Shown: piece by piece, positions 1-28,105 of the stretch
Position numbering within the stretch: the first letter of the stretch is position 1
Layout of the letters: every line of letters begins with the position of its first letter
IMG/VR virus record: IMGVR_UViG_3300033153_009805
Span: 25,442 to 58,666 of that record
DNA from: a virus
Reading direction: 5' to 3' (one strand)
Length of the DNA stretch: 33,225 nucleotides
Program-made: the position numbers and the translations under genes
Notes under the pieces: model-generated
The model's database searches: none
What the model was told of the DNA's origin: nothing
The model's input: the letters and a program-made list of their open reading frames with translations, nothing else

Positions 1-2046
1 CATGCTTTTTTCACTGTCTAATCTTTTAGCATCCGCAGCAGACCTTCCTATATTAGATGGCTCTTTTCTAGCTCCAAATCCATTTTGATTTAATCTATCA
101 GCCAACCCGCCATCAATGATCTGTTCAAATCCGTCATTCATTTCATCAGTATTCCACGTCGCTTGACTTAAGAATTCACCATCTGCTTTCTTGTACAATC
201 TTATTATAACTGTATATCCATCGATATTAGATTCACCCCTTTGAGTTCTATCATGTTGGCCAAATATATATGGCCGCCTAGGCAATGGTATAGGGTATCC
301 ATCATTTATTAACAATTCACCAGCACCTTTTTTGGTATCTCTCCTAACAAAGCCATCGTAAGGTTCAGGATTATAAGGCATTAAAAAATCCCATATAATC
401 CTAAATATTTCTTCAAATGGCGTCAGTTTATTTTGAGCAACTTGAGTCCAATGCCATAATTGACTAGATCCAGTAGCCTCACATGCACGACATTCAGGTT
501 CACCCTGATTTTCTTCAGCTTCATAATCGATGCTTCCCCTAGGTTCTATAAATCGGAATGGAGATTGATAAATCTTGTTGGTATTGAGAAATTTAATTGC
601 TTGTTGACCATTAATAGTGATGCGCATTGTTTCAGGGGTTAATAATGCATTAGAACTTCCACCTGCTTTTGCACCGCAAACAGGACATAATCCGTCATCA
701 CATCCCATCAATACTGATTGATCGGTACCATTAATAACAATCCACCAATATGGTCCTCCTGGTTGTTGCTCGTACAATTTCTCAACTGTAGGTCGATCAT
801 CATTATCTTGTCTTGGAACATTAGTCAGAAATCTTGTGTCTGGTTCAGCACCGCTTGGTATTGCTAGTATCGGATTAGTTTGTAGAGTATTATATGGGTC
901 GCTGCCAGCTTTCCAAATAAATTCAATTTTTATTTCAGCGACATATTTGCTATAATAATCATCAAAATTATCAATAACATTATAATATTGTTGATACAAT
1001 TCATATTGTTTAATATCTAGATGTTCAATCCATTCTTCTAAACCAACTAAATATTCAGATTGTTTACCATGAACACGGAATTTTTTGAAATCTTCTTTCA
1101 ATCGTCTAACAAATCGGTCAATACTTAGGTTGTCATTTTTTTTACGAGCTTCATAAAATTCATCTGCTATATAGCGAATAATTTGATTCGGTAGAGTATT
1201 GACTTTCTGTACCAGATTTTGTTTAGGATATTTCGCATTTAAATCGGCCAAGACAGTACCGCCCAATGAACTGTTCAATAATTGATCAAAATCTATATCG
1301 GCCAGCGGCAAGTAATAATAGAATTTAGTGTAAACATCATATAATCTCTCATCGTAATGATCGGCGATAATCTGCATCCTTTCATAAATTCTTAAGAATC
1401 TCGCTCCTTTGCACGTTGAATCGATATCTTTCTGCCAGAGTTTGTCCTTAATGACATTTCTCAATATGTCATTTGGTGTATCAATTAAGCATTTACATGT
1501 TTTATTATGATTCTTTAATGCATCTATACGGGCTTTTGTTACATGATCACGCAAATTTTTCAAGGCCTTAACAGTGGTACATTGATCCGCACTTAATTTT
1601 TCAGAAGGCTCTTCTTCAGCGTTATCGAATTCCTTCATCCATCTATCAGTGATATTACGCGGCATTTCGTCTCTATATCTGTTCAACAAATAATATCTAG
1701 TGAGACCAGCTTTATTCCTAATATTTTCAATTTCTGATTCGCTATTGCCTTGACTGTGGGCATGTTTCACAGCATTCTGAACTGATAATGCATGTTTAGT
1801 ACGTAAGGCATCTATAAGATGTCCCTGAATCTTCTTTTTGATTTGATCAGTCCACCATTTTTTCTGGCCACTTCCGGCCAATCCCCACACAAAATTCGAT
1901 CTTAGAGGTGGTTCATCAGATGCTATAGCTACAACATGAGCAATCTTTATGCGAGTCGTCAACCAATCTTGTCGCGCCTCATCTATCGTGGAATTATCCA
2001 ACACATTAGACAATTCCTCTATTATTTTAAGTTCAATCTTATTCAA
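1..2046 (-). CDS. Large protein of unknown function, C-terminus beyond window edge
   Basis: A reading frame stays open from 2046 down to the window edge, giving 682 residues without a stop; the gene continues outside the window. The most likely start is TTG at 2046: a GAGGGG ribosome-binding site lies six bases upstream, and the TTG overlaps the TGA stop of the preceding gene (TTGA). The protein is rich in charged residues and Asn. It has a Cys cluster near residues 445-455 (CxxxxCxxC) and a second CxxC near residue 520, which could bind zinc. I do not recognise the family. Its size and place after a run of co-directional small genes suggest a virion or assembly protein, but that is inference only. 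Confidence 0.75.
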   Translation of the reverse strand, partial: MNKIELKIIEELSNVLDNSTIDEARQDWLTTRIKIAHVVAIASDEPPLRSNFVWGLAGSGQKKWWTDQIKKKIQGHLIDALRTKHALSVQNAVKHAHSQGNSESEIENIRNKAGLTRYYLLNRYRDEMPRNITDRWMKEFDNAEEEPSEKLSADQCTTVKALKNLRDHVTKARIDALKNHNKTCKCLIDTPNDILRNVIKDKLWQKDIDSTCKGARFLRIYERMQIIADHYDERLYDVYTKFYYYLPLADIDFDQLLNSSLGGTVLADLNAKYPKQNLVQKVNTLPNQIIRYIADEFYEARKKNDNLSIDRFVRRLKEDFKKFRVHGKQSEYLVGLEEWIEHLDIKQYELYQQYYNVIDNFDDYYSKYVAEIKIEFIWKAGSDPYNTLQTNPILAIPSGAEPDTRFLTNVPRQDNDDRPTVEKLYEQQPGGPYWWIVINGTDQSVLMGCDDGLCPVCGAKAGGSSNALLTPETMRITINGQQAIKFLNTNKIYQSPFRFIEPRGSIDYEAEENQGEPECRACEATGSSQLWHWTQVAQNKLTPFEEIFRIIWDFLMPYNPEPYDGFVRRDTKKGAGELLINDGYPIPLPRRPYIFGQHDRTQRGESNIDGYTVIIRLYKKADGEFLSQATWNTDEMNDGFEQIIDGGLADRLNQNGFGARKEPSNIGRSAADAKRLDSEKSM

Positions 2047-2429
2047 AAGATTCCCCTCAGTGGGAATGCTTCGCATATCTCTCCTATAGACAATGGTCTG
2101 TCGCTTGGAATAGAATCAACTTGTACATCCTGTCCAATAGCACGCAATTTGGCATACCAATCCTCAACATATCTACAGGATGTACAATTATCCGGACTTG
2201 GTGCCGGGCCATTTGGCAATACAAAAAATTTCCTCCTTGGGTTCCGCATATAAACGACGCTTGATCCTGAAACTGCTTCAAGAGCATCAGCCAGATCAAC
2301 AACAGTGACTGCACATTCTCTGTTTTCGGCTAGCGTTGGACTAGTAAAGGCGCTAGTTGGCTCACACCCAGGTACTACTATTTTATTGCCAAGCAAAACT
2401 TCTAATTTATTTGCTATATTTATTGCCAT
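2043..2429 (-). CDS. Hypothetical protein (128 aa)
   Basis: ATG start with a GAGA-type ribosome-binding site about eight bases upstream. The start overlaps the end of the preceding gene by ten bases, and the stop overlaps the TTG start of the next, so it is translationally coupled on both sides. The sequence has a CTSC motif followed by an aromatic-rich helix near residues 82-92. No family recognised. The compact coupling suggests it works with its neighbours, possibly in virion assembly. Another frame inside this gene (2084-2314) is open by chance and is ignored. Confidence 0.75.
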   Translation of the reverse strand: MAINIANKLEVLLGNKIVVPGCEPTSAFTSPTLAENRECAVTVVDLADALEAVSGSSVVYMRNPRRKFFVLPNGPAPSPDNCTSCRYVEDWYAKLRAIGQDVQVDSIPSDRPLSIGEICEAFPLRGIF

Positions 2430-2986
2430 ATTATTCTCTCTAAGATGCCTTTGATTAATCTCGTTGTAGCTTCTTTGTTGCGCCTCATTTTATTACTTAT
2501 GCGCAACTGCGGATCTATCCGTTCTAATTTCTTCATAAGACGAGGCGACATCATAATCAACATATTATCGTTATCATAAACATTGATCCATATTTTCATC
2601 ATAGGGCTGATTATAATATCAACTATTGGATACTTGTCGCCCAATTCGCCCGGTGCTATCTTAAGGATTTTAATTTCAATGTTGATTTTGCCAAAACCAA
2701 ATCTCTTGGTTTTGGCCGATTTTTCATTAAATTCATCATATAGATTTATATCTTGCCCAAGACCGCGTTTATGTTTAAGCGTATCAGAAACGAATCTTCT
2801 GAATTCATGAAATATTTCAATTGCCCATCCATTTAGATCTTCTGTATTCTCCCTATCAGTTTCGTAATTTCTTTTAGCTATCTTGCCATGAGGCTTTAAT
2901 TGAGTAATATCTTCATCAATAAGATATAATTCTCTAAATTCATCAAAATCGAGAGCATGAAAATCACGCGATATGTTACCAATCAT
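2420..2986 (-). CDS. Hypothetical protein (188 aa)
   Basis: The 188-residue protein is charged, with an acidic N-terminal third and a basic C-terminal tail rich in Arg and Lys (residues 150-188). The middle has a beta-rich stretch with hydrophobic Ile runs (residues 105-135). No clear ribosome-binding site precedes the ATG, which lies 14 bases after the stop of the upstream gene. It overlaps the next gene by ten bases. No signal peptide or membrane segment is visible. I do not recognise the family; it belongs to the same minus-strand block as the putative structural genes. Confidence 0.75.
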   Translation of the reverse strand: MIGNISRDFHALDFDEFRELYLIDEDITQLKPHGKIAKRNYETDRENTEDLNGWAIEIFHEFRRFVSDTLKHKRGLGQDINLYDEFNEKSAKTKRFGFGKINIEIKILKIAPGELGDKYPIVDIIISPMMKIWINVYDNDNMLIMMSPRLMKKLERIDPQLRISNKMRRNKEATTRLIKGILERIIWQ

Positions 2987-2999
2987 ATATTATATTTAT

Positions 3000-3767
3000 T
3001 TAGTAGACGTAAATGCCAAGCGGTTCGCCGACACTAATGGCAAATTCTAATACCTTTTCATATTCATCCTTGCCCTCAGTTACCAAATCACCACCATCTA
3101 ATGTAATGGCACCACCTTCAGGACCAGGTACGCCTTGAAGCTTTCTCCTAGCATAGCCAAGAGCAATCTTCATTTGTGCAAGAAATGCTCGATAAGTAGC
3201 TTCTCTAGCTTGTGGCGATCTAAACGTATTGACAGATGGAAGATACTCAACAACTACCGGAAAACTCCCCTTAGGAACCGGGAATAATTTAATTGTGCCG
3301 CCAAATTTTCCATTAGGATCACCGCGCTCAACTTTAAATTCCCAATGGCCCTCATTACCTAATATTCTCTGGCTGAATTTTCTATAAGATTGCAACAAAT
3401 GATAATCTGTCAAGATGTTCTGAATACCAGAAATGTTTCCAATATTGAACAGGAAAGACTCGGCGCCGAAAATATCATCTATTCTGGTAGTGGATGGATC
3501 CCAAACACAGCTCCTAATCCAATAAGCATCTTCTGGAATCGGATATTCCGACTGAAGCGGTTGGGTCATAAAAAAAGCAAAACGTTCTTCCAATGGGAAA
3601 TAATGAGAAATAAAATCGCCAGCAGATCGTAATACTTGCTCCATCTGCGTTTCAATTAGCTCTATAAATACTACTGGGTGACCCAATTGGCTCAAAGCAT
3701 GGAATTTAAGAGGATTTGAATCAACTTTCAAAATTATAGGTAATTGTTCTGGACCAAGTATAGCCAC
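3000..3767 (-). CDS. Putative virion protein (about 255 aa)
   Basis: The frame opens at an ATG at 3791. The likelier start is GTG at 3767: it has an AGGAG ribosome-binding site nine bases upstream and shares its first G with the TAG stop of the preceding gene (TAGTG). The C-terminal half, with a Pro/Val-rich beta stretch followed by a long helix (GYARRKLQGVPGPEGG and beyond), resembles in style phage neck or virion proteins, but I cannot name the family. It sits within a block of coupled genes likely to be expressed together. Function is inference from context; the coding call itself is strong. Confidence 0.7.
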   Translation of the reverse strand: MAILGPEQLPIILKVDSNPLKFHALSQLGHPVVFIELIETQMEQVLRSAGDFISHYFPLEERFAFFMTQPLQSEYPIPEDAYWIRSCVWDPSTTRIDDIFGAESFLFNIGNISGIQNILTDYHLLQSYRKFSQRILGNEGHWEFKVERGDPNGKFGGTIKLFPVPKGSFPVVVEYLPSVNTFRSPQAREATYRAFLAQMKIALGYARRKLQGVPGPEGGAITLDGGDLVTEGKDEYEKVLEFAISVGEPLGIYVY

Positions 3768-4357
3768 TACGAGAAACTCCTCCCACCACATTTCTTAACG
3801 CCGAATTTAATGCCATTATACTCTATATGGATTACATCTTCAGGCACGAAATTTATTAAGCCAGGATGGCCGGTAACAACACTTAAAGCTGTTACCAAAT
3901 TATCCCTAAGTTCCGCTACTTCTGATTCTACTATAGGAAGTGGATCTTGTCCTTCGGATAACATTCCGCCTCTGTTGACATTTCTTATGTCAGTATGTTC
4001 CCCCTGATCAGTCCCACTATGTATTATCTCAATATCAGTTGTCGGCCCTCTTGCCGGCTTATTGACTTTTACGAATCCGACAATAGTAACCCTAGCAGAG
4101 AAATCTCCAAATTGTGTAGTAAACAATATTGGAGTTGAAATGTTGATTTCTTGAGTTAATAACCCATCATCGATAGCATTGAGTACACTCATCTGTATCA
4201 ATCTTACTGCTTTTTGTAGATTATGAACCATAGTACGGCGTTTACCAGTTCCGAGATTAGGAACTACTCTAATCCAAGCTCTAAATGGCACAAAATTTTC
4301 TCGTCTTGCTGCTGTTGGAGCCGATACCCAAGAACTAGTAGAAAGTTCAGAAGACAT
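3767..4357 (-). CDS. Hypothetical protein (196 aa), possible virion component
   Basis: Starts at ATG 4357 with AGGTG six bases upstream. The protein has an N-terminal low-complexity Ser/Ala segment, a helix around residues 45-65, and beta-rich segments after residue 70. A Gly-rich C-terminus ends at the coupled start of the next gene. No catalytic motif or membrane segment is seen. Its place first after the 4434-4463 hairpin suggests that it may open a separately transcribed unit. The family is not recognised. Confidence 0.75.
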   Translation of the reverse strand: MSSELSTSSWVSAPTAARRENFVPFRAWIRVVPNLGTGKRRTMVHNLQKAVRLIQMSVLNAIDDGLLTQEINISTPILFTTQFGDFSARVTIVGFVKVNKPARGPTTDIEIIHSGTDQGEHTDIRNVNRGGMLSEGQDPLPIVESEVAELRDNLVTALSVVTGHPGLINFVPEDVIHIEYNGIKFGVKKCGGRSFS

Positions 4358-4433
4358 AATTTCACCTATTACTATATTTTTGTTCTTTGTTCTAGCCCGA
4401 ATTGATTATCTTGTGTTAAATGGACACACACAA

Positions 4434-4463
4434 ATCTGGCCACGCACACGTGCGTGGCCAGAT
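4434..4463. terminator. Perfect 14-bp hairpin, likely bidirectional terminator or processing signal
   Basis: Two 14-base arms (ATCTGGCCACGCAC and its exact complement) are separated by only two bases. The hairpin lies between the stop of the gene at 4484 and the start of the gene at 4357. On the minus strand it is followed by a weak T/G stretch rather than a classical U-tract. A terminator or RNA-processing hairpin fits best. Its TGGCCACG core recurs as an inverted repeat at 29461-29505. Confidence 0.7.
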
Positions 4464-4483
4464 GATCATATTATCCGATAGCG

Positions 4484-4870
4484 TTATGAGCGAGCAGCAC
4501 GAAGGTCAGCGTGCAGATCTTCAGTCTCATAACCATCCTGTTTATTGAGGAACTTATCTTGACCAATAACTATGGGGAAGGCCAGATGCGATATAGCAAC
4601 AATAGCTTCTTCTAATGATAGTACAGACTTAAGGCCGCGAACTACTGGCAGACCAGACCCACGTCCTTCTATAATAGCAGTAGTTACAATATCACTATCC
4701 ACATCAGTAATTCTAATAACAGTGTCTAGAGTCTCGTCAGCCGGAACACTCATAACTAGTGGACGCAGACGATTGACCATACCATGAATATTGTTGTGAC
4801 GCAACATCTGGCGGTAAGACCTTACACGACGCTTGACTGCAATTTCAGTGTTTGCTGGTTGAGAAGCCAT
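4484..4870 (-). CDS. Hypothetical protein (128 aa)
   Basis: ATG start preceded by AGGAG. A basic N-terminus (residues 12-35, several Arg) is followed by an alternating beta/helix pattern. No catalytic motif, signal peptide or membrane segment is visible. It is the last gene before the hairpin at 4434-4463, so its transcript probably ends or is cut there. No family recognised. Confidence 0.75.
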   Translation of the reverse strand: MASQPANTEIAVKRRVRSYRQMLRHNNIHGMVNRLRPLVMSVPADETLDTVIRITDVDSDIVTTAIIEGRGSGLPVVRGLKSVLSLEEAIVAISHLAFPIVIGQDKFLNKQDGYETEDLHADLRAARS

Positions 4871-5945: not shown

Positions 5946-6351
5946 TATCAACATCCAATCCAACAATATGTACGTACCTTATATCACACACTTTAACTTT
6001 TCCGTCAATAATCATATTAGAAAGACGAGTAACCACTTTACCAAGAACTGACTTACCAGCAATCAAATCCAATTCTAATTCTACGCCAAGATCATTTTGA
6101 AGAGTTTCGATACTAAACATTACCTCTTTGTCGCCGGTAACAAAAGCATCTATAACAATATGACTTACTTCCTCCTTGCTGATCTTTAATTTCACAATAT
6201 TGTATGATCCACAGATCGTACGATTTCTTATTTTCTCCCTAAACGATGGCCTAGTAAAAAGTTCTATAATATTTTCACTAGTATAAATATAACCACTTTT
6301 ATATGCCGGATAATCAAGAGCAATATTAGTATGTATACTGAATCGCGACAT
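5917..6351 (-). CDS. Hypothetical protein downstream of purZ (144 aa)
   Basis: The ATG at 6351 overlaps the TGA stop of purZ (TGATG), so translation is probably coupled to PurZ. The protein is mixed alpha/beta with an acidic C-terminal tail (residues 132-144). No catalytic motif, metal site or membrane segment is visible, and I do not recognise the family. Its tight coupling makes it a candidate partner in nucleotide metabolism, but this is inference from position only. Confidence 0.7.
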   Translation of the reverse strand: MSRFSIHTNIALDYPAYKSGYIYTSENIIELFTRPSFREKIRNRTICGSYNIVKLKISKEEVSHIVIDAFVTGDKEVMFSIETLQNDLGVELELDLIAGKSVLGKVVTRLSNMIIDGKVKVCDIRYVHIVGLDVDNESSDIETD

Positions 6352-8606
6352 CAATCTTTATACCAAACATGTCCTATACCAGGTCCAGTACCCACTAACG
6401 CAACAGGAATTCCAATCGCAGTTTCTAGATCAACAATGAAATCTCTAACTTTCCTAGGAAGCAGGTCTAGATTATACAGATACCCACCAGTCTGGAAACA
6501 TTCATAATCTAAATAATTCGCAAAATTCAAGGCAATCTTAGTAGCCCCATTGACTCTACAAGCCCTCTTTACCTGTTCCATAGAAAACGTGAATACTCTA
6601 CGAACTCTCTTAGTAACAGTAGTAATCTCCTGTAAATCGTAATCAGAAGGATATCCAGACAATTTTCTAATATCGGCCCATGACATCTCGGCCTGATCAT
6701 CATAAACATCTCCAGAATATCCAACAATTTTACCATTCTCAACCACATTGCCGACACGAATAGGATACGGCCTAACAACAACATATACATCACCAACCAC
6801 CGACGGAGCTAATCCCATATCCATCAGTTCACGAGATACTGTACACTCACGACTAGTGCAATTTTCAACATTAAAATATCCAGCATGATTAGAAACAAAA
6901 TAATTATGGCAATCTTTAATTTCAATATTATATGTAACATTGTTGTGTCTAAATTTCTTTTTAACTTCAACAACATCGACAATTGTTTCTATATCAGATA
7001 TCAAATTATCTGAAGCTAAAGACCACGAAATGTCGTATTTGTCTGGCATCTTATATTTCATACATGGCGAAATATAAAATTTGATATTTTCAAAGAACTT
7101 GTCATGACAAGTTCTTGAAAGTCTTAAATAATATTCATATTGACCTTCTAATTTCTCATTATTATATCGTTTGGGTCGTTTGTTTACCGAAAAATTTAAG
7201 TTAAATTTAGAATTCAAACAATCCGCTAATTGTTGATTTTCTTCTTTTGTAAATCCTTGAGAATGCATAAAAATTTCTTGACCATTACAAGCCAATTTAT
7301 ATTGACCATCATCTTGATACCATATTGCAATTCCTGCCCATTCAATATCTTTAATTATTGCATTAATATTTGGTCTCTTAACTCCAAAACAACCATACCT
7401 TTTAGCTAATTTTTTAATGTTATTTCTATAAGCAGATTCATATCGTATATGGTTATTCCCTTCTTTAAATGAACTTTTACTAGTAATAATATTTCGCATC
7501 CCACCAGCAGTATATGATTCCATTATAGCTGCTTTATCACGACAATAATTTTGCTGCTTTTCACAATGCGAAAAAGAAAACTGCGCTCTTTTAGGTGATT
7601 TAAACACATTACAAACAGTGCCATCACCAAGCATAGAACCAAGAAAAACCTGCAGGGCTCCCCCTGTAATTTTATGTTCTAAAGTATAAATTTCATCACC
7701 TGATACCAATTCATCAACTCTTTTAAGACCATTAGTTGTTTTAACTTGGTGATTACCAGTCAATTTGGGGCCATACCAAGATTTATCATGTGGTGCATAC
7801 ACTGATGTTTCTGTGATAATATTGTACCATTTTCTGTCTAACAAATCACTTTTATGCCAATTAACAATCTTCCCAGACACAATATGGCCATCATTATCAA
7901 GACATTTCACTTTAACATCCAGTTTATTGTTGACTATTTTGCCTATTGCCATAGTTGTATTGTCATCTAATAGCACTTTAGATTGATAAGACAAACAAAA
8001 AGGATAATGGCTACCATGAAGCATTCCAAGGCTAAAACCCTGGCTTCCTTCGTGCAACCACATCCGATTATTGTCCAACAGACTGTGAATTTCCTCAAAC
8101 CAATCATCTACAATCATCTCAGAAATCTCTGGAATATCTCTGGCAAGCTTTACAGTTGGTCCGCGCATCAAACGTTCTACCTGAACAGCACCGGATCCCT
8201 GCATAGTCGAGGCAATATGCTTAGTACTTTGTTTAACCGACTTCTCCCCTCTTTCTATAGCAGCATGTTCATCGGTTACAACCATTGTCCTAGGATGAAT
8301 CCTGACTTTAGATGGTTCAATATCACATTCATTCATTTCTTTCAACAGTTGTCCAATTCTAAACCCAGCCCCAGGCCCAATATATGCTTTGATATTTCGT
8401 CCGAATTTGTTTAAGAACATGTTTACTGGCAATATCTTAGAAATAAACGAAGTGCCGCCAACAACTATTGTATGTCCAGCATTTGGCAAATTATTAGTAC
8501 TAGCAATGCCAATCTCCCATCTATTACCTAAAAATCCGGCTATTAAGCCCTTGCCACAACTGCCCCATTGACCATCGACTACTATATTCAGTTTTCCTGT
8601 TTCCAT
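6351..8606 (-). CDS. purZ: PurZ, 2-aminoadenylosuccinate synthetase, with in-frame intein
   Basis: PurZ joins dGMP and aspartate using ATP, the committing step to diaminopurine (Z) deoxynucleotides. The 751-residue precursor holds a 372-residue synthetase (1-203 and 583-751) split by a 379-residue intein. The N-terminal motif GQWGSCGKG has Ser16 where cellular PurA has its catalytic Asp; this change marks phage PurZ. NAGHT follows at 42-46, and EGSQGFSLG at 186-194. After splicing, the junction reads YPF/CTSREC, matching, from memory, YPYCTSRDC in vibriophage PhiVC8 PurZ. The late TTVTKRVRRVF and GTGPGIG segments also match. The start is ATG with GAGGG upstream, 20 bases from a TATAAATA element. 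A host-type PurA role is less likely because of Ser16 and the closer match to phage PurZ. Confidence 0.95.
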   Translation of the reverse strand: METGKLNIVVDGQWGSCGKGLIAGFLGNRWEIGIASTNNLPNAGHTIVVGGTSFISKILPVNMFLNKFGRNIKAYIGPGAGFRIGQLLKEMNECDIEPSKVRIHPRTMVVTDEHAAIERGEKSVKQSTKHIASTMQGSGAVQVERLMRGPTVKLARDIPEISEMIVDDWFEEIHSLLDNNRMWLHEGSQGFSLGMLHGSHYPFCLSYQSKVLLDDNTTMAIGKIVNNKLDVKVKCLDNDGHIVSGKIVNWHKSDLLDRKWYNIITETSVYAPHDKSWYGPKLTGNHQVKTTNGLKRVDELVSGDEIYTLEHKITGGALQVFLGSMLGDGTVCNVFKSPKRAQFSFSHCEKQQNYCRDKAAIMESYTAGGMRNIITSKSSFKEGNNHIRYESAYRNNIKKLAKRYGCFGVKRPNINAIIKDIEWAGIAIWYQDDGQYKLACNGQEIFMHSQGFTKEENQQLADCLNSKFNLNFSVNKRPKRYNNEKLEGQYEYYLRLSRTCHDKFFENIKFYISPCMKYKMPDKYDISWSLASDNLISDIETIVDVVEVKKKFRHNNVTYNIEIKDCHNYFVSNHAGYFNVENCTSRECTVSRELMDMGLAPSVVGDVYVVVRPYPIRVGNVVENGKIVGYSGDVYDDQAEMSWADIRKLSGYPSDYDLQEITTVTKRVRRVFTFSMEQVKRACRVNGATKIALNFANYLDYECFQTGGYLYNLDLLPRKVRDFIVDLETAIGIPVALVGTGPGIGHVWYKD
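6861..7997 (-). mobile_element. Intein in PurZ with LAGLIDADG-type endonuclease domain
   Basis: The intein is residues 204-582 of the PurZ precursor. It starts with CLSYQSKVL, a canonical block A with Cys1. A block B-like TGNHQVKT (TxxH) lies at 283-290. The C-terminal block F reads IEIKDCHNYFV, and splicing ends at Asn582 before Cys583. Two LAGLIDADG-like motifs, FLGSMLGDG (321-329) and GIAIWYQDDG (425-434), bracket the central endonuclease region. The penultimate residue is Glu581 instead of the usual His, a known but minority variant. Removal restores an uninterrupted PurZ active-site segment. Confidence 0.95.
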
Positions 8607-8673: not shown

Positions 8674-10320
8674 ATGTGGAAACCAATAGATGAAAATTTA
8701 CCAACTAAAAAACATTCAAGGAAACAAATAACTTTTAAATGCCAATGTCGAATAAGAACAATCAAAAAAATGCCATGGAGAAATTATGCAGCTGGGCATT
8801 CTAAATCATGCGGAAAATGCAATTATATTTATCTATCAGAATTAAACGGAAAACAATATGGGAATCTACAAATTGAAGAAGATAAAGACGAGCTAGTATC
8901 CAAGAATTATAAAGCAATTTTTATATGTTCCTGTGGTTCTAAGAAAAAAATTGTTCTTAAATCAGTATTGAATGGATTAACAAAATCGTGCGGATGCCTA
9001 TTAATAGGCAAAAATGAAAAATTTATTGAACATGCATTACTGTACAAAGGACCTCAACAGATAATTAATCGGCCATCAATTAATCCTAATGTTAAATTAA
9101 ATGATTGGTGGCAATTACAGCAATTTGGACGATTAAAAATAATTCAAACTGTTGATAAATTATCAATCAAATCAGAAAAAAAACTACAATGTCAATGTGC
9201 ATGTGGAAATATGCATCACGTACGAGCGGAACATCTCACTTCTGGTCGAACTAAATCATGCGGAAAATGTTCATTAAAAGCTGCCAAATGGTGGGAAGAA
9301 ACCAAAATATTATCATATCCAACAAATTTAAAAGAATTCAAACAAATAATGGAAGGTTCTTCTCTAGAACCATTAGAATTTAATAAATTAAAACCCAAAA
9401 CAAAATGTTTATATTGTTCCAAAATTTTTACGCCACGATTTTATGATATTTTCTTAAAACAGATTAAGTCATGTGGTTGTATCAATTCTAAGATCACCCA
9501 ACCAACTATAAAATTAGCATCATATATTCCAAACCAAATAACTATAGAATATGAAAAATCTATAAATGGATGGGATATCGATATTTTTTTGCCAGATTTT
9601 AATTTGGGAATAGATTTGCACGGTTTAAGATATCACTCCAATGCTATAAGAGATAATAAAAGTAAAGACATAAGAAAATTTAGAAATTTATCGCATACTA
9701 TTGATTATTTAGTAATATATGAAGATGAAGTGAGGATTAAAAAAGATTGGTTAAAATCATTCTTAACAGAAAAAACGAAATCTAGTAATCCAAAAATCTT
9801 AAGACCACAAAAATGCTCATTACAACAAATCAATTATAAACAAACAGTACCATTATATGAACAATATCATTACTTAGGACCTAGAGCCGCAAAACTTCAT
9901 TTGGGTTTATATTACAACGAAAAATTAGTAGCCGCAATAAGTATTCATACCCCAAGCAGGCAGTCCAATCATGATTATGAAATAGTAAGAATGTGTAGAA
10001 ATCCTAATTATAGGATACATGGTATTTGGTCATATTTAATGTCAAAATTACCAGAATATGGAGTATCTGGTAGTATTATTTCATTTAGCGATAATAGAAT
10101 ATCAAATGGGAATGTCTATTCCATAATCGGATTTAAATTTTCTGGTGACATAAAATCAGATTATTGGTATACAAATTTGAGACAAAGATTCCATAAATCC
10201 AAAATGAGAAAAACTAAAAAAGAGAAATTAAGTAATACAACAGAAGAGAATTTACGATTGAATCAAGGTTTTTATAAAATATGGGATTTTGGCAAGAAAA
10301 AATGGGACATTACCCTTTAA
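8674..10320 (+). CDS. Free-standing homing endonuclease, Vsr-like (EDxHD type), with Zn-finger repeats
   Basis: The 548-residue protein is one of few plus-strand genes. Its first half has four Cys-rich modules (about 22-49, 84-108, 172-199, 246-270), most ending in KSCGKC or KSCGC, as in DNA-binding fingers of phage homing enzymes. Residues about 300-330 carry GWDIDIFLPDFNLGIDLHG, followed by VIYEDE, the signature of Vsr-like EDxHD endonucleases such as I-Bth0305I. The C-terminal domain (about 385-510) resembles the acetyltransferase-like domain often fused to phage homing enzymes. It should cut a recipient genome lacking it. An AAGG site precedes the ATG. Its stop overlaps the stop of the convergent exonuclease gene. 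It is more AT-rich than its neighbours, a sign of recent arrival. Confidence 0.85.
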   Translation: MWKPIDENLPTKKHSRKQITFKCQCRIRTIKKMPWRNYAAGHSKSCGKCNYIYLSELNGKQYGNLQIEEDKDELVSKNYKAIFICSCGSKKKIVLKSVLNGLTKSCGCLLIGKNEKFIEHALLYKGPQQIINRPSINPNVKLNDWWQLQQFGRLKIIQTVDKLSIKSEKKLQCQCACGNMHHVRAEHLTSGRTKSCGKCSLKAAKWWEETKILSYPTNLKEFKQIMEGSSLEPLEFNKLKPKTKCLYCSKIFTPRFYDIFLKQIKSCGCINSKITQPTIKLASYIPNQITIEYEKSINGWDIDIFLPDFNLGIDLHGLRYHSNAIRDNKSKDIRKFRNLSHTIDYLVIYEDEVRIKKDWLKSFLTEKTKSSNPKILRPQKCSLQQINYKQTVPLYEQYHYLGPRAAKLHLGLYYNEKLVAAISIHTPSRQSNHDYEIVRMCRNPNYRIHGIWSYLMSKLPEYGVSGSIISFSDNRISNGNVYSIIGFKFSGDIKSDYWYTNLRQRFHKSKMRKTKKEKLSNTTEENLRLNQGFYKIWDFGKKKWDITL

Positions 10321-19655: not shown

Positions 19656-19665
19656 AAATCACCAT

Positions 19666-19742
19666 CGCGCCCGACAGGATTTGAACCCGCAACCTCCAGG
19701 ATCCTTACTCCCAGTGCTCTAGCCAAATTAAGCTACGGGCGC
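19666..19742 (-). tRNA. tRNA with expanded anticodon stem-loop (centre AAG)
   Basis: Acceptor GCGCCCG pairs fully with CGGGCGC; D-arm and T-arm (GCGGG, TTCAAAT, CCTGT) are canonical. The anticodon arm is CTGGGA, GTAAGGA, TCCTGG: six pairs rather than five, or a nine-base loop. The central triplet is AAG, with U before it. AAG would be Leu, but the variable loop is short, unlike bacterial Leu tRNAs. Identity is uncertain. Confidence 0.75.
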
Positions 19743-19765
19743 ATATAGTTTATATACTAAACAAA

Positions 19766-20563
19766 TTATAATACTTTAATTATCCAAGCGATTTCAACAA
19801 ATGCCGGGGTAGCAGCGCCAGATCCAGTATTTGCATCAGACGGCCCAGTAGTATTTGCAGTAGACGGCACATCAGTATTTACAGTAGATGCTATACCAGT
19901 AGAACCATGTGATGATGCATCTGTATCTGCAGCAGACGGCCCAGTAGTATTTGCAGTAGACGGCACATCAGTACTTGCAGCAGATGTTACACCAGTATTG
20001 CCACCACCATGTGTATGATCTCCACCAGAAATATCTGTAATATTAGATCCAGCACCGTTCTGTACTGTAGCACCACCGATGTGTAAACCGTGGGTATGCG
20101 CTCCACCAGTATCAATAGGATGTGTATGACTCTGCATCGAGTGCGTATGACTATCCATCGAGTGCGTATGACTCTGCATCGAGTGCGTATGACTCTGCAT
20201 CGAGTGTGAGTGATTCTGCATCGAGTGCGTATGACTATCCATCGAGTGCGTATGACTCTGCATGGAATGATCATGAGAATCAGAACCACCAGAAATAAGA
20301 GGATTATTACCGCCATATGGAGAACTAAGATTACTAGTATCTGCGCCACGTATGAATTTCACAGGTGTAGCAATTTCTTCCACAGTCTTCATCAGTGCTG
20401 GTTTGTTTCGCCCAAACAATGGTGATTCTGGTGTAAAGACTGCTCCGCCATCAGCATATTCCCATCCGGATGGGGTGCTTGGCTGGGGCGATCCGGCTTC
20501 GGGAGACATCCACGGGACACATATGCCTACGGGTAATTCAATATGGCCGATATTAATTGTCAT
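19766..20563 (-). CDS. Tail fibre or tip-like protein with His-rich heptads
   Basis: The 265-residue protein begins with a collar-like region (PVGICVPWMSPEAG, then PSGWEYADG), as in phage tail collar or short-fibre proteins. Residues 96-151 hold eight heptads of the type SHTHSMQ, giving many HxH pairs suited to binding metal ions along a trimeric fibre, as in the T4 fibre tips. Further HTHG motifs follow, then an Ala/Ser/Thr-rich repeat region with TDVPSTANTTGPS twice, and a short hydrophobic end. It probably recognises the host or shapes the fibre tip. No ribosome-binding site is evident before the ATG. Confidence 0.8.
   Translation of the reverse strand: MTINIGHIELPVGICVPWMSPEAGSPQPSTPSGWEYADGGAVFTPESPLFGRNKPALMKTVEEIATPVKFIRGADTSNLSSPYGGNNPLISGGSDSHDHSMQSHTHSMDSHTHSMQNHSHSMQSHTHSMQSHTHSMDSHTHSMQSHTHPIDTGGAHTHGLHIGGATVQNGAGSNITDISGGDHTHGGGNTGVTSAASTDVPSTANTTGPSAADTDASSHGSTGIASTVNTDVPSTANTTGPSDANTGSGAATPAFVEIAWIIKVL
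20111..20278 (-). repeat. 21-bp tandem repeats encoding HxH heptads
   Basis: Eight in-frame 21-bp units inside the fibre gene, encoding SHDHSMQ, SHTHSMD, SHTHSMQ, NHSHSMQ, SHTHSMQ, SHTHSMD, SHTHSMQ and SHTHPID. The units are nearly identical in DNA, so copy number can change by slippage. Confidence 0.93.
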
Positions 20564-20581
20564 TTTATTATTTATTTTTTG

Positions 20582-20965
20582 TTAAGTTTGGATAGCAAAT
20601 TCCTTTGCTTCTGCAATAACCCACAACCATAATGATTCTTTATCCAAATCAATATTAGTTGTGTTTGGCGATAAATGAATCTTGCCGCGCAACAATGCTC
20701 GTAAAGTACACAATTTAGTAATGCGCTTAGCTATCTCTTCACAATCTAGACAAGCTTCCCAATATTCGTTGCGTAATTTGTCTTTTTGCGGATCATCCGA
20801 TCTCCAAATATGCGTTTTATGGTCATATTTATAATCATCCCATAGATGCTCGACAGATTTGTTTAAGGTAGGATCCCGCATCTTTCTCTTGGACTCCTTT
20901 ATCTCCTCAGATAATTTTTTAATTTCATTTTTCAGCAACGTCACGTTAATATTGTTCTCCTTCAT
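20582..20965 (-). CDS. Coiled-coil hypothetical protein (127 aa)
   Basis: ATG preceded by AGGAG six bases upstream. Residues 8-35 are a Lys/Glu-rich heptad helix, followed by a DPQKDKLRNEYWEACLDCEEIAKR helix region (written here in parts: DPQKDKLRNEYW, then EACLDCEEIAKR). No enzyme motif is seen. It lies between the fibre gene and the Pth2-like gene in the same direction. Family not recognised. Confidence 0.7.
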   Translation of the reverse strand: MKENNINVTLLKNEIKKLSEEIKESKRKMRDPTLNKSVEHLWDDYKYDHKTHIWRSDDPQKDKLRNEYWEACLDCEEIAKRITKLCTLRALLRGKIHLSPNTTNIDLDKESLWLWVIAEAKEFAIQT

Positions 20966-20973
20966 AATAGCTC

Positions 20974-21294
20974 CTATCTTAATAATGGTAAATTAGAAAA
21001 ATGCTTCCGAAGCTTTTTCTTAGAATCTGGATATACACCAATAGCCATAATACTATTGTGCCATGGTGGATCTGGTTCTCTAATTGATTTATGGGGAATG
21101 CCTTTTTTGATAAGGCGTTGTTCAATATCTAATAAATGTTGCTCATTTTTGGCAGCTAGAACTATAGCTATAGTGCCACTAGGAAGATTACCAGGGCTGC
21201 TTTCACCGGCCGCATGAACGAGTTGTGCCGAGATGGTTCCTAATGGGAGATCGCGTCTAATTATACAATAATGAGCTATATCATCCCAGCTCAA
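20974..21294 (-). CDS. Pth2-like peptidyl-tRNA hydrolase
   Basis: The 106-residue protein matches the Pth2 family pattern: YCIIRRDLPLGTISAQLVHAA at the N-terminus (parts: YCIIRRDLPLG and TISAQLVHAA), a central strand IAIVLAAKNE, KKGIPHKSI, and a late SIMAIGVYP strand. Pth2 frees peptidyl-tRNA stalled on ribosomes. This would help a phage that makes its own tRNAs. The start is TTG at 21294 with no strong ribosome-binding site; no in-frame ATG precedes the conserved N-terminus. The family is usually archaeal or eukaryotic, but phage members are known. A PTH2-fold protein with another role is the alternative. Confidence 0.75.
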   Translation of the reverse strand: MSWDDIAHYCIIRRDLPLGTISAQLVHAAGESSPGNLPSGTIAIVLAAKNEQHLLDIEQRLIKKGIPHKSIREPDPPWHNSIMAIGVYPDSKKKLRKHFSNLPLLR

Positions 21295-21312
21295 GGATTG
21301 GCTGTCAAGGCT

Positions 21313-21687
21313 TCATAATATACTATCTTTTAACCGAGATATCCCACCAACAGTTTCTCTTTCAATGTCTCCAAGATCTAATTCTACCCAATAAATCTCA
21401 AATGCAATACAATCTTCAAGCACCTCGAATTTATGCCATTGGCCAGGAGGGACTATAGTCTGTTCTCCAGGACCAACGATCGTTATATCATCTAATATCC
21501 CTGAGCCATAATCTTTAGTAACTATAATCTTAAGCTTGCCTTTTTCGACCAGAAACATATTAAATTTAGATTGATGGAAATGCTTCGAACAATACCCACC
21601 CCTACGGCCTTCTATTCTATGAATTTCAACATTGTTCTTAAAGAATACAGGACTAGTTTTGCCCCACACTTTACCGTGAATTTCCAT
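21313..21687 (-). CDS. Cupin-domain protein (124 aa)
   Basis: The start is ATG at 21687 with GAGG six bases upstream; the longer frame to 21723 lacks a site. Cupin motif 1 is seen as GGYCSKHFHQSKFNMFLVEKG (parts: YCSKHFHQSKFN, MFLVEKG) and motif 2 as PGEQTIVPPGQWHKFE (PGEQTIVPPGQWH). Two His in KHFHQ, a possible Glu and a late His could bind metal. The substrate is unknown; small phage cupins include sugar-nucleotide isomerases and dioxygenase-like proteins. It overlaps the end of the SbcD-like gene by 17 bases. Confidence 0.8.
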   Translation of the reverse strand: MEIHGKVWGKTSPVFFKNNVEIHRIEGRRGGYCSKHFHQSKFNMFLVEKGKLKIIVTKDYGSGILDDITIVGPGEQTIVPPGQWHKFEVLEDCIAFEIYWVELDLGDIERETVGGISRLKDSIL

Positions 21688-22729
21688 TGACCACCTCTTC
21701 GTTGAGTTTTTGAAGAAACTCAATATTTAATTTCTTAGGTTGATCATGTTTTAGCCATTTATCGAATAGATCTAATGGCGAATTGAGCGACAAATCTGAT
21801 TTGGATTGCCGATCATCAAGATCGATTTTTTCTTCTTTCATCTTCATAAATTTTATACTAGATACTCCACGCTTCGAGAAAGATTCTCTTATTCTAAACA
21901 ATTCATCTTTGCTATATTCACGATTTAATTGTATCCTAACATTGTCTCCATCAAGCTCTATATCACAATCCAACATATCATCAGTTAATGTTATATAACC
22001 TGGCGGCTTAGGACCTTCAATCAAGTCCAATTCAAATAAGTCAATAAATTTTATCTTGCGGGAATCAAGATCATATTCGATAAATCCATGCGATACCATA
22101 CCTTCATCAAACCTGAATGGTATTGGACTGCCAGGATACCAAACATTATCTCCGACTTTTTGTTTGCAATGGAAATGTCCAGCAAATACTATATCGAATT
22201 TTGAATTATCAAAATTTACTGTACTCCAATTCTTCAACATATAGCATTCATTTAGAGTAGCATTATGCACACCGATATGTGTTAGCAGCACATCTTTATC
22301 TTCATATAATTCCTCAACAGCTTCAACAATTTTCATATATACAGATTCAAAATGGATAAATGGCACAATCCAAAATCTGGAATTCAGAATATTAATGAGC
22401 TTTACTTCCTCAACAATAGTCGCAACATCATTAAGAAAATGTAAAGAATTGATATCCCAAGTATTTCTCATATATAAATCATGATTACCAGGAAACAAAA
22501 CCCATTGTTGACCATAAACATTCTTCGTCTCTGCCAAAAAGAGATATACCGCATTAAGGACTTCGATATTAATATTTTCTCTATCATGAAATAGATCACC
22601 AAGAACACAAACTATTTCAACATCGTTAATTTTCGCATATTCTCTAATATGCCTAACTGACCACAAAATATCATCAAGTTTTTTAGCTAACCCGAAATGG
22701 ATATCGGCCGTGATTATTATATTAGACAT
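21671..22729 (-). CDS. SbcD/Mre11-like nuclease (T4 gp47-like)
   Basis: Metal-dependent phosphoesterase acting with the SbcC-like ATPase on DNA ends. The calcineurin-like motifs are complete: ADIH (D9, H11), GDLFHD (D45), GNHD (N82, H83), H151 and GHFH (H185, H187). The 352 residues match phage gp47, with a C-terminal capping and partner-binding region. No ribosome-binding site is visible before the ATG. The next gene begins inside its last six codons, which suggests coupling. Confidence 0.95.
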   Translation of the reverse strand: MSNIIITADIHFGLAKKLDDILWSVRHIREYAKINDVEIVCVLGDLFHDRENINIEVLNAVYLFLAETKNVYGQQWVLFPGNHDLYMRNTWDINSLHFLNDVATIVEEVKLINILNSRFWIVPFIHFESVYMKIVEAVEELYEDKDVLLTHIGVHNATLNECYMLKNWSTVNFDNSKFDIVFAGHFHCKQKVGDNVWYPGSPIPFRFDEGMVSHGFIEYDLDSRKIKFIDLFELDLIEGPKPPGYITLTDDMLDCDIELDGDNVRIQLNREYSKDELFRIRESFSKRGVSSIKFMKMKEEKIDLDDRQSKSDLSLNSPLDLFDKWLKHDQPKKLNIEFLQKLNEEVVNGNSR

Positions 22730-22755
22730 ATTTTTTCATATACTAATATAATAAT

Positions 22756-22923
22756 CTAACAATGATGGTTTTTACTTCTAATCTTTTTATGACACCCAGA
22801 ACATTTTGGTCTCGATTTCCTAGCCCAATATTTATTAGGATCAATCGGGCCAATAATAGATCTAAGACGTTTAAGCCCCTTACAATTTGTATTACAAATC
22901 GGGCATCTAAATATACGAATCAT
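22756..22923 (-). CDS. Small zinc-ribbon protein (55 aa)
   Basis: The start is the ATG at 22923; the longer frame begins with TTG at 22941. CPICNTNC and CSGCHKK provide four or five Cys for a zinc ribbon, in a basic protein (many Arg/Lys, ending NHHC). It may bind nucleic acid. The ribosome-binding site (GAGAG) lies within a perfect inverted repeat (22924-22955), so its translation may depend on RNA folding. Confidence 0.65.
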   Translation of the reverse strand: MIRIFRCPICNTNCKGLKRLRSIIGPIDPNKYWARKSRPKCSGCHKKIRSKNHHC

Positions 22924-22955
22924 ATAAATACTCTCTTTCAATAAAGAGTATTTAT
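22924..22955. promoter_or_regulatory. Inverted repeat over the ribosome-binding site of a Zn-ribbon gene
   Basis: Two exact 11-base arms (ATAAATACTCT and AGAGTATTTAT) are separated by ten bases. The left arm ends one base before the ATG at 22923 on the minus strand. The arms also contain TATAAATA-like motifs on both strands. It could be an RNA hairpin that hides the ribosome-binding site, or a divergent promoter element. Confidence 0.6.
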
Positions 22956-22983
22956 CAGGTCATCTTAGATCTCCAGTTCATGA

Positions 22984-23068
22984 TGGATAACGGCAGATTC
23001 GAACTACATCCCCTTAAGGACCATCGGCTTAGCAAGCCGCGTTGAGACCCTTTCTCAACTCGTTATCC
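22984..23068 (-). tRNA. tRNA-Ser(GCU)
   Basis: Acceptor GGATAAC pairs fully with GTTATCC. The anticodon loop TTGCTAA gives GCT. A long variable arm (class II) and TTCGAAT T-loop are present, as expected for serine. The D-arm is unusually stable, with seven pairs. Confidence 0.92.
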
Positions 23069-23072
23069 AATA

Positions 23073-23336
23073 TTATATTTCCATAAAATCAGCAATTTCA
23101 GATATGGCTTCTAAATATGGAGACTTCTTCGATCCGATTTCGCCTTCTGGACCTTCAGCAGTTTTAACTTTGTGGGTCTCTTTACCAGGATCCCTTGGTT
23201 CTTTCTGTTGCTCATGAGTATGTCCAATTATTTCGAATTTCTCATCAACATCCACTTCATCAACATCATCATCATCAGATTCATTGAAAATATCTGGATC
23301 TTCTGTGAGCCATTTGGCTATATCTTTAGGATTCAT
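23073..23336 (-). CDS. Acidic hypothetical protein (87 aa)
   Basis: An acidic protein with a dense Asp cluster at residues 21-32 (SDDDDVDEVDVDE) and a later Glu/Lys/Pro-rich segment. No fold or motif recognised. Acidic small phage proteins may mimic DNA or bind host factors, but nothing specific supports this here. It lies between two serine tRNA genes; its stop is five bases from the 5' end of tRNA-Ser(GCU). Confidence 0.65.
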   Translation of the reverse strand: MNPKDIAKWLTEDPDIFNESDDDDVDEVDVDEKFEIIGHTHEQQKEPRDPGKETHKVKTAEGPEGEIGSKKSPYLEAISEIADFMEI

Positions 23337-23363
23337 AACTTATTTTTATCTCGATACGATTGA

Positions 23364-23457
23364 CGGATAGCAGAGGATTTGCACCCCAAGTCCCGCTCAT
23401 CGCAGGACTCCCACGGTTTTCAAGACCGGTCCGGTACGCTTGCCCGATTTACCATCC
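23364..23457 (-). tRNA. tRNA-Ser(UGA)
   Basis: Acceptor GGATGGT pairs with GCTATCC (two GU pairs). The anticodon loop CTTGAAA gives TGA. A long variable arm with a five-base stem is present, and the T-loop is TGCAAAT. Its first base is also the last base of the TAG stop of the upstream gene. Confidence 0.92.
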
Positions 23458-23687
23458 TAATTTTCAACATCTTGACACCAACAATCCTTTTTAGAACATT
23501 TAGGCTTACCAGCATCGATCCAAGCCTGGTGAACCTCTGTTAAATGCCTAAATACATCAGCAAACATCTGTGCAGTGTCCTCTTGAGAACCAATTAATTG
23601 CTCAGGCATTATTTTTTGCGCTGATTTCATTAATTTTTGTGCTGATTTTCTAATAATAGGGAATGTGAATTTTTCAAATTCCTTCAT
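23457..23687 (-). CDS. Hypothetical protein with C-terminal Cys motif (76 aa)
   Basis: Start at ATG 23687 with GGAGAAG upstream; a GTG five codons earlier overlaps that site and is less likely. The protein is helical, with the repeat AQKLMKSAQKIM, and ends in CSKKDCWCQ, a possible metal site. Its TAG stop shares its G with the first base of tRNA-Ser(UGA). Family unknown. Confidence 0.65.
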   Translation of the reverse strand: MKEFEKFTFPIIRKSAQKLMKSAQKIMPEQLIGSQEDTAQMFADVFRHLTEVHQAWIDAGKPKCSKKDCWCQDVEN

Positions 23688-23730
23688 AATGAGCTTCTCC
23701 ACTGGTTATGAATATTTTGCAGGATCTATA

Positions 23731-23805
23731 TGGGACCGATCAGATTTGAACTGATGGCCTCTGCTTTATCAGAGCAGTACTCTACCCAAACTGAGCTACG
23801 GTCCC
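23731..23805 (-). tRNA. tRNA-Ile(GAU)
   Basis: Acceptor GGGACCG pairs fully with CGGTCCC. The anticodon stem CTGCT/AGCAG encloses CTGATAA, giving GAT. D-arm and T-arm (ATCAG, TTCAAAT, CTGAT) are canonical. Its first base coincides with the last base of the upstream gene's TAG stop. Confidence 0.95.
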
Positions 23806-24149
23806 TAAGTATATAATCGCCCATCCTTACTATAATAATTGATCGTGCGATCAAATAAATTATTTTTGGATACACAAACAGCATTCTTAGTTATAGGATC
23901 AGTATTAATAATATTGCTGGCCGGAATGCCCCTATTAAAACATACCCAACCAGATCCATCTTGATATTGATTATGATCAATTACTCCAACATCATCAATA
24001 GTATTGCTAGTTAATTGATCTACGATATTGGTTTTATGTCTTTCCGACAATACTACGCTTTTAGTATCTCTAACAGTTTTCTTGATCTCCGCCAAATCGA
24101 ATTTAGCTGGAGTCCTATCTGCCTTATTGCGTCTCCAGAATTTGAACAT
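23805..24149 (-). CDS. Hypothetical protein (114 aa)
   Basis: ATG at 24149 with GAGATAATT upstream, directly following the coiled-coil gene. A basic N-terminus (FKFWRRNK) precedes a helix, then a beta-rich Asn/Asp-rich second half. No motif recognised. The stop TAG shares its G with tRNA-Ile, so the tRNA 5' cut would fall at the end of this message. Confidence 0.65.
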   Translation of the reverse strand: MFKFWRRNKADRTPAKFDLAEIKKTVRDTKSVVLSERHKTNIVDQLTSNTIDDVGVIDHNQYQDGSGWVCFNRGIPASNIINTDPITKNAVCVSKNNLFDRTINYYSKDGRLYT

Positions 24150-24151
24150 AA

Positions 24152-24334
24152 TTATCTCACTAACTTTCTAATAGTCTTCTTTAATTGATCATAGTCGCTT
24201 TTTAGCTTCTTATGATCTTTTTCTAATCTCTTATGATCTTTTTCTAATCTCTTGTAGCGTTGTATCATAATATTGAGATCACGCCTCAATACCTGATTTT
24301 CATAAAACAATTTATTAGATTCGCTGTCTGGCAT
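24152..24334 (-). CDS. Small coiled-coil protein (60 aa)
   Basis: ATG overlaps the TAA of the preceding gene (TAATG), with GGAG seven bases upstream. From residue 13 it is one continuous coiled coil, with the repeat KRLEKDHKRLEKDHKKL. It probably forms a dimer or trimer and may serve as a spacer or adaptor. Family unknown. Confidence 0.7.
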   Translation of the reverse strand: MPDSESNKLFYENQVLRRDLNIMIQRYKRLEKDHKRLEKDHKKLKSDYDQLKKTIRKLVR

Positions 24335-24948: not shown

Positions 24949-24995
24949 TCCCTTTACTTTCCTTTCTCATTCAAATTAGTTTAAATTAAATATTA

Positions 24996-25067
24996 TCCTA
25001 GGACCGGGATTCGAACCCAACCTTCAACGTCCACAGCGTTGCGTGCTTCCAATTACACTTTCCTAGG
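24996..25067 (-). tRNA. tRNA-His(GUG)
   Basis: Acceptor CCTAGGA pairs fully with TCCTAGG. The anticodon loop CTGTGGA gives GTG. The T-arm is TTGGG, TTCGAAT, CCCGG. The base before position 1 is T, not the encoded G-1 usual for histidine tRNAs, so G-1 would not come from the gene. Confidence 0.9.
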
Positions 25068-25070
25068 AAA

Positions 25071-25142
25071 TAGGCGTAGCAAGATTCGAACTTGCATTGC
25101 TGGTTCCGTAGACCAGTGTCTTATCCATTAGACGATACACCC
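25071..25142 (-). tRNA. tRNA-Arg(ACG)
   Basis: Acceptor GGGTGTA pairs with TACGCCT (two GU pairs). The anticodon stem CTGGT/ACCAG encloses CTACGGA, giving ACG, which needs A34-to-inosine editing to read CGN codons broadly. T-arm GCAAG, TTCGAAT, CTTGC. Confidence 0.93.
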
Positions 25143-25197
25143 ACACATCCTAACATCCTAACTACTAGATCAGGTACTTAAAATGAAATACAATGAA

Positions 25198-26346: not shown

Positions 26347-26347
26347 A

Positions 26348-26420: not shown

Positions 26421-26430
26421 CGCATTTATA

Positions 26431-26883: not shown

Positions 26884-26893
26884 ACAAATAAAA

Positions 26894-26966: not shown

Positions 26967-27008
26967 TAGGAAGAATCATAATCAGAATGATCCGCTAAAT
27001 AACTAATT

Positions 27009-27293: not shown

Positions 27294-27302
27294 ATTAAAT
27301 AC

Positions 27303-27566: not shown

Positions 27567-28004
27567 TTAGATATCATCTAATTCTTTAGATAATTTACCC
27601 TGCTTAATCATCTCTTCAGTATGAAGCAAACAATGTATATTCCATAACCAAGCAGCAAGATGATCTTCCTCATCCTTTCCCATTAACCAATCAAGACTAT
27701 GCCTAGTAGCCGAATTGAAGAATACAGAAAGAGGCATTCCCTTTTCCCAATTTCGAACACCATATTTTCTAGCGCCACGTTCCATGTGAACTGCTAAGCG
27801 CCTCAAAACATATGGTGATAAAAGGTGGAAGAAACCTTTATCCTCTTGTATATCGCGCTGAGCACCAGATTCAAACGTTTCTTTTGAACCAGAATCTGTT
27901 ATTCTGGTTTTCTCGACTACCTCATCTTTACCCCATAAATCTTTCTGAATCTCTTCATACGATTTTTGCAGAATAATATGAGGGTCATCTTTTTTTGTTA
28001 CCAT
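27567..28004 (-). CDS. dATP/dGTP pyrophosphohydrolase-like protein (DUF5664), MazZ candidate
   Basis: The true start is ATG 28004 (AGGTG six bases upstream); the frame runs on through the upstream tRNA, which is not coding. The 145-residue protein has GARKYGVRNWEKGMPLSVFF (77-96), then ATRHSLDWLMGKDEEDH (99-115) and AWLWNIHCLLHTEE. This matches the DUF5664 family, annotated as the N-terminal dATP/dGTP diphosphohydrolase domain and related to proteins found with purZ in Z-genome phages. In that pathway a pyrophosphohydrolase turns dGTP into dGMP, the PurZ substrate. The residues are consistent with an all-alpha pyrophosphatase fold. Activity is inferred; the link to purZ is by family and genome only, as the genes are 19 kb apart. 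Confidence 0.75.
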   Translation of the reverse strand: MVTKKDDPHIILQKSYEEIQKDLWGKDEVVEKTRITDSGSKETFESGAQRDIQEDKGFFHLLSPYVLRRLAVHMERGARKYGVRNWEKGMPLSVFFNSATRHSLDWLMGKDEEDHLAAWLWNIHCLLHTEEMIKQGKLSKELDDI

Positions 28005-28032
28005 AATACACCTATATAGCATGAAATACAAC

Positions 28033-28105
28033 AACGGGCAGGAGAATCGAACTCCCGTCTCCTGGTAGACAGCCAGGTATTTTCCCATTAAACTACATGC
28101 CCAAT
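28033..28105 (-). tRNA. tRNA-Asp(GUC), acceptor stem irregular
   Basis: The anticodon stem CCTGG/CCAGG encloses CTGTCTA, giving GTC. T-arm GGGAG, TTCGATT, CTCCT is canonical. The acceptor does not fit a usual layout: ATTGGGC/GCCCGTT has one T-T mismatch and shifts the D-arm, whereas GGGCA/TGCCC gives five pairs but leaves the 3' side three bases short. It may be decaying or fold unconventionally. Confidence 0.75.

Follow-up and report, generated by a model that had tools for sequence, protein, structure and literature searches.

The viral DNA examined here, from a large bacteriophage, encodes a PurZ-type enzyme that is interrupted, within its active-site segment, by an intein. The window, by which we refer to the whole 33,225-nucleotide stretch analyzed (positions 25,442 to 58,666 of IMG/VR record IMGVR_UViG_3300033153_009805), carries on its minus strand a gene of 751 codons (6351..8606), and the unspliced reading frame matches both the NCBIfam PurZ model (2.5e-58) and the archaeal-type PurA model (6.8e-60). 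We consider residues 204–582 of this precursor to be a mobile class 1 intein with ordinary splicing and homing as its mechanism, a reading to which we assign a probability of roughly 0.92. Inteins as such are well known; what is new here is the host protein, with two sites of insertion, rather than the kind of intein itself.

The architecture of the precursor is readily divided. The N-extein (7998..8606, minus strand) supplies PurZ residues 1–203, contains the motif GSCGKG and terminates in HYPF, while the C-extein (6351..6860, minus strand) supplies residues 204–372 and starts with CTSREC, the opening Cys of which is native to the PurZ family, as judged from aligned relatives. Between them lies an insert of 379 amino acids (6861..7997, minus strand; precursor codons 204–582) that begins with Cys1 and ends in Glu-Asn ahead of Cys+1. 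Its N-terminal splicing half (approximately residues 1–108; 7674..7997, minus strand) was delimited by block alignment and by a structural match to the Mtu RecA intein, its LAGLIDADG_2 homing endonuclease domain (approximately residues 112–318; 7044..7664, minus strand) by Pfam and by profile and fold matches to I-SceI, and its C-terminal splicing half (approximately residues 335–379; 6861..6995, minus strand) by block F, which reads YNIEIKDCHNYF, and by the terminal VEN of block G, after which Cys+1 follows directly. Block A runs from Cys1, and block B is represented by TGNH at residues 80–83. Both acidic motifs of the endonuclease are retained, as LGDG (123–126) and YQDDG (227–231, with DDG at 229–231). 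The reading frame is uninterrupted through the intein and both exteins, and an open frame of 379 codons would be expected by chance, at the base composition of the insert, with p ~4e-16. Excision of the insert in silico leaves a protein of 372 amino acids that can be aligned over its entire length with the PurZ proteins of phages. In GC content the insert (30.3%) lies below the exteins (40.8%). A preliminary description of this DNA had placed a 379-residue intein at 6861–7997, with a spliced product of 372 residues and a penultimate Glu at position 581, and each of these values is correct. The Cys1, the splicing blocks, the two LAGLIDADG-like motifs and the split between YPF and CTSREC that it reported are likewise all seen in the alignment, the Pfam matches and the fold. 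It made no mention of a further departure from the norm, which is that the usual Asp at position 4 of block F is replaced by Asn (N357).

The endonuclease portion of the insert is recognized directly by Pfam LAGLIDADG_2 (PF03161; E=1.7e-16, 61 bits against a cut-off of 25). The Pfam Intein_splicing match is weak (E=0.0034) and falls under its cut-off, as does the match to TIGR01445, and as such the case for an intein is made from relatives and from the fold. An alignment was assembled of 29 inteins, comprising the window intein and 28 phage inteins, in which C1, H83, D229, K316, H364 and N379 are invariant; the block B His and the block F H364 are thus each present in 29 of 29 sequences, and the block B Thr in 28 of 29. 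The nucleophiles of a class 1 intein are all in place (C1, N379 and C+1). An AlphaFold2 model of the intein, built from 26 sequences, has a mean pLDDT of 89.2 and superposes by VIA-align on the splicing domain of the Mtu RecA intein (2in0) with Z 21.9 and 1.6 A over 138 amino acids, the match running from termini to termini (residues 1..379 onto 1..440), which identifies the HINT fold in the splicing domain. Given this match, the splicing-domain scores beneath the cut-offs appear to be a matter of divergence. The same model superposes on I-SceI (1r7m) with Z 21.8 and 2.5 A over 202 amino acids, with the acidic residues D125 and D229/D230 aligned to those of I-SceI, and a profile search from the intein reaches I-SceI, I-WcaI and many inteins. 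A model of the whole precursor, built without intein rows, was of low confidence across the intein part and was left unused.

Several other origins for the insert were considered and set aside. A group I or group II intron is ruled out by the frame, which is open throughout, and by the presence of the protein blocks; an assembly chimera is ruled out by a junction that falls precisely between two conserved codons and by the completeness of the blocks. A class 3 intein is ruled out as well, as Cys1 is present and position 4 of block F is Asn rather than Cys.

The element has clear counterparts among phage inteins. Those of the KLEP7 RNA ligase (Pseudaeromonas phage), the SelmaRatti DNA polymerase (Escherichia phage) and the pEa_SNUABM_17 UvsX-like recombinase (Erwinia phage) align with it over their full length at 20–30% identity, and share with it the splicing blocks, the class 1 residues and a homologous LAGLIDADG_2 endonuclease. 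They differ from it in host protein and insertion site, and in that they end in His-Asn whereas the window intein ends in Glu-Asn. I-SceI and I-WcaI have the LAGLIDADG fold and both acidic motifs in common with the window endonuclease, but are intron-encoded and have no splicing domain.

The position of the insertion is informative. In the PurZ of phage S-2L, Y203, C204 and T205 line the dGMP pocket (PMC8342488). In profile alignments to the 7odx structure, the Cys that opens the C-extein falls on chain position 210 and the GS serine on position 29, each six positions beyond its S-2L counterpart (C204 and S23, respectively); the intein therefore parts the equivalents of S-2L Y203 and C204. As the dGMP pocket is split in this manner, the unspliced precursor should be inactive. 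Elsewhere in the family the segment is generally whole, and YPx/CTSR (the slash denoting the insertion point) is uninterrupted in 137 distinct PurZ N-halves from the fetched loci.

The events that would follow translation can be outlined from what is known of class 1 inteins. The splicing domain would fold once the precursor has been translated, the N-extein would be carried as a thioester first on Cys1 and next on Cys+1, which is the cysteine native to PurZ, cyclization of the C-terminal Asn would release the intein, and ligation of the two PurZ halves would yield the 372-amino-acid enzyme. The LAGLIDADG domain, for its part, would cleave purZ alleles that lack the intein, at the YPx/CTSR codons, and repair would copy the intein in. 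An active-site segment would be favored as the place of residence because the DNA is most conserved there, and because only exact excision restores the essential residue pair. We infer that the intein splices, that the nuclease cuts, and that the spliced protein makes the precursor of 2-amino-dAMP.

Both departures from the canonical intein lie at positions that assist catalysis, and the preliminary description had proposed that the penultimate Glu, which is E581 of the precursor and E378 of the intein and does indeed stand in place of His, may slow or condition splicing, such that the intein could act as a switch on Z production. The split dGMP pocket lends this proposal some force, given that a precursor awaiting excision would be without activity, and a regulatory role has been proposed for phage inteins (PMC5050341). 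The relatives, however, argue against it. Within the 29-member alignment, 17 inteins have a penultimate His, 7 have Ser, 2 have Glu (the second being that of locus L128) and one each has Lys, Gly or Thr, so that 12 of 29 lack the His. In mycobacteriophage inteins this residue is poorly conserved and often not His, and the RDF intein, which has Gly, splices completely, whereas its Gly-to-His mutant is slowed and accumulates precursor (PMC5050341). These mycobacteriophage elements resemble the window intein in being class 1 without a penultimate His, and differ in having Gly, Lys or Ser where it has Glu. A review counts the penultimate His among the assisting residues and not among the nucleophiles (PMC4031507). 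Position 4 of block F is Asp in 17 of the aligned inteins, Cys in 8 and Asn in 4, the window intein included, and a penultimate His accompanies none of the four with Asn as compared with 17 of the other 25 (Fisher p = 0.02, for sequences that are related to one another). This pattern is only suggestive, but it resembles a co-adapted active site more than a fault. Furthermore, the majority of phages in the clade produce a PurZ with no intein at all. Based upon the non-His relatives and the Gly intein, the Glu is uncommon yet gives no indication that splicing is slow or conditional, and neither that suggestion nor the proposed switch is supported by the comparative evidence; that Glu, in company with the block F Asn, slows splicing or makes it depend on redox, on temperature or on the time since infection, and in this manner times Z production, seems to us very unlikely.

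The same two residues, in blocks F and G, might instead be taken as marks of decay, i.e., of a remnant that is defective in splicing or capable of cleavage only, in which case the PurZ of the window phage would be broken. This we regard as the most improbable of the explanations weighed here, as the frame is intact through intein and exteins, Cys1, Asn379, Cys+1, the block B Thr and His and the endonuclease motifs are all kept, and both exteins retain the residues that are invariant across the PurZ family. It is possible, in view of two non-canonical positions of catalytic assistance, that splicing of the window intein is inefficient or is accompanied by side cleavage. By default we would nevertheless read the insert as a mobile element that splices promptly.

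The identity of the host enzyme bears upon the meaning of the finding. The N-extein motif GSCGKG has Ser (S16) where PurA has its catalytic Asp, a substitution published as the mark of phage PurZ (PMC12884076), and among the related phage sequences in which the motif was read, only one lacks the Ser of GSxxKG. In our tree, in which archaeal PurA was unsampled, the large-phage clade to which the window protein belongs joins the characterized PurZ proteins and stands apart from PurZ0 and bacterial PurA (96/97), while lying outside the core PurZ clade. The PurZ of phages S-2L and phiVC8 share with it the enzyme family, the GSxxKG Ser and the Cys at the insertion point, and have no intein there; the phiVC8 protein is ~37% identical to that of the window, which sits in its separate large-phage clade. 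The window also encodes a protein with a dATP/dGTP diphosphohydrolase domain (PF18909, DUF5664; 27567..28088, minus strand, assigned by domain match), a family which is present in several Z phages and clears dATP and dGTP from the pool (PMC12884076). Taken together, these features make it probable, on sequence grounds, that the host is a PurZ-type enzyme, presumably a 2-amino-adenylosuccinate synthetase. The contrary view, that it is an adenylosuccinate synthetase of the archaeal type (PurA) with IMP as its substrate, draws on the profile scores and on the genomic setting. The spliced protein scores 209.0 bits with the NCBIfam PurZ model, under the curated cut-off of 300 (the intein-free relative L014 scores 222.9 bits); the archaeal-type PurA model gives a slightly higher score, 221.6 bits, which likewise falls short of its cut-off. 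BLAST-level searches of the 58.7-kb record from which the window derives and of eight related records returned no homologue of DatZ or DpoZ, and a YfbR-like HD protein of the DatZ type was absent from that record and six relatives, both Z-phage controls having matched. Weighed against the Ser, the tree placement and the diphosphohydrolase-domain gene in the same genome, we find a PurA identity rather unlikely, and the reading of the insert as an intein is unaffected by it.

Searches of six related large-phage records gave no PF18909 gene, and searches of nine records gave no DNA polymerase of the B family; the A family of DNA polymerase has matches in six related records from large phages and none in the window's own record, which is probably partial and contains contractile-tail genes (sheath, tube and baseplate). 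The records of L014, L016, L017, L023, L210 and L211 range from 137 to 408 kb and each has a PurZ-type enzyme and a DNA polymerase A family match, with no recognizable DatZ. This large-phage PurZ-type lineage outside the core clade may use other partner enzymes. The window itself additionally carries sixteen tRNA genes with small ORFs among them (19665–32062), as well as unusual phage metabolic cargo in the form of a glutamine synthetase-like gene (25198–26346) and an orotidine 5'-phosphate decarboxylase gene (32143–32799).

The closest PurZ proteins are those of L014, L015 and L016 (67, 65 and 61% identity; IMG/VR records of 185, 36 and 371 kb, respectively), and in all three purZ is intact with an empty site, HYPQ/CTSREC. 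L014 and L015 are syntenic with the window on both sides of purZ, yet have no intein. Adjoining the window purZ, and divergently transcribed from it, is a free-standing homing endonuclease-like gene of 548 amino acids (8674..10320, plus strand; phrog_3339, E=2.3e-51), the product of which also has a weak C-terminal Mom/GNAT-like match under the Pfam cut-off. This gene is missing from the syntenic L014 and L015, whereas L016 has a homing endonuclease-like gene (50% identity) beside purZ and no intein. From this distribution it follows that the window locus holds two separate mobile insertions, and the intein and the neighboring gene might conceivably help one another to spread. When the entire precursor was searched against IMG/VR, no relative was returned, and the exact intein of the window was found in no other record, so the case for its mobility is drawn from the comparison of empty and filled sites in diverged phages. 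None of 80 IMG/VR loci retrieved with the intein alignment has PurZ exteins. A profile search of genome contigs with the alignment of PurZ N-halves gave one weak and distant match (L343, 25% identity), and hence these contigs offered no example of an intein in a cellular or prophage PurZ.

Scans with the PurZ N-half covered 166 PurZ loci, partly overlapping the earlier locus set, and revealed inteins in two of them. L210 (IMGVR_UViG_3300045256_000294, a 137-kb record) has two PurZ inteins within a single ORF of 1232 amino acids, one of 424 amino acids at NAGH/T (1723–2994, plus strand) and one of 397 amino acids at HYPQ/C (3529–4719, plus strand), the latter at exactly the site used in the window and with a canonical His-Asn ending (AHN/CTSR). 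L211 (IMGVR_UViG_3300025121_000282, a 315-kb record) has an intein of 424 amino acids at NAGH/T (1696–2967, plus strand). The two NAGH/T inteins are 41% identical (164/399) and are plausibly alleles. The two YPx/C inteins are only 16% identical (53/331) and their endonucleases belong to different families (LAGLIDADG_2 in the window, LAGLIDADG_3/Hom_end in L210), which rules them out as alleles and makes independent arrival at YPx/C the simpler reading. In S-2L PurZ the phosphates of dATP are touched by H52 and T53 (PMC8342488), and with the YPx/C residues likewise touching substrate, both sites split pairs that contact it. The L210, L211 and L016 records have further intein splicing-domain matches elsewhere. 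The three intein-carrying PurZ proteins are scattered in the PurZ tree, and with L210 and L211 added to the window, PurZ emerges as a repeatedly invaded target of inteins in large phages.

With respect to novelty, the literature searched, which was taken apart from subscription papers and InBase, has no published intein in PurZ or in adenylosuccinate synthetase. The earlier statement that no PurZ intein had been described stands to that extent, and is incomplete in that the site is also filled in L210; the comparison of PurZ homologues at this insertion site, which the preliminary description had called for, thus finds it occupied by an unrelated intein in L210 and empty in L014–L016. Inteins in the active sites of phage nucleotide enzymes are already known, e.g. 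that of thymidylate synthase (PMC5050341).

The present finding extends the range of intein hosts to an enzyme of nucleotide modification, and the occupation of one PurZ site by two unrelated inteins is a clean convergence on active-site codons. For the annotation of PurZ in metagenomes it means that genes split by inteins would otherwise be missed or divided. As purZ is expected only in phages that replace adenine with 2-aminoadenine, the nuclease of such an intein would have to find and cut Z-DNA, and it is conceivable, though we hold the idea tentatively and consider it more doubtful than not, that the intein nuclease cuts Z-containing DNA and is thus a homing enzyme that has adapted to a non-canonical genetic alphabet, with PurZ as a hotspot for such elements. 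If Z-DNA is real in these phages, their nucleases would provide a direct test of whether homing enzymes are able to cut when every A is 2-aminoadenine.
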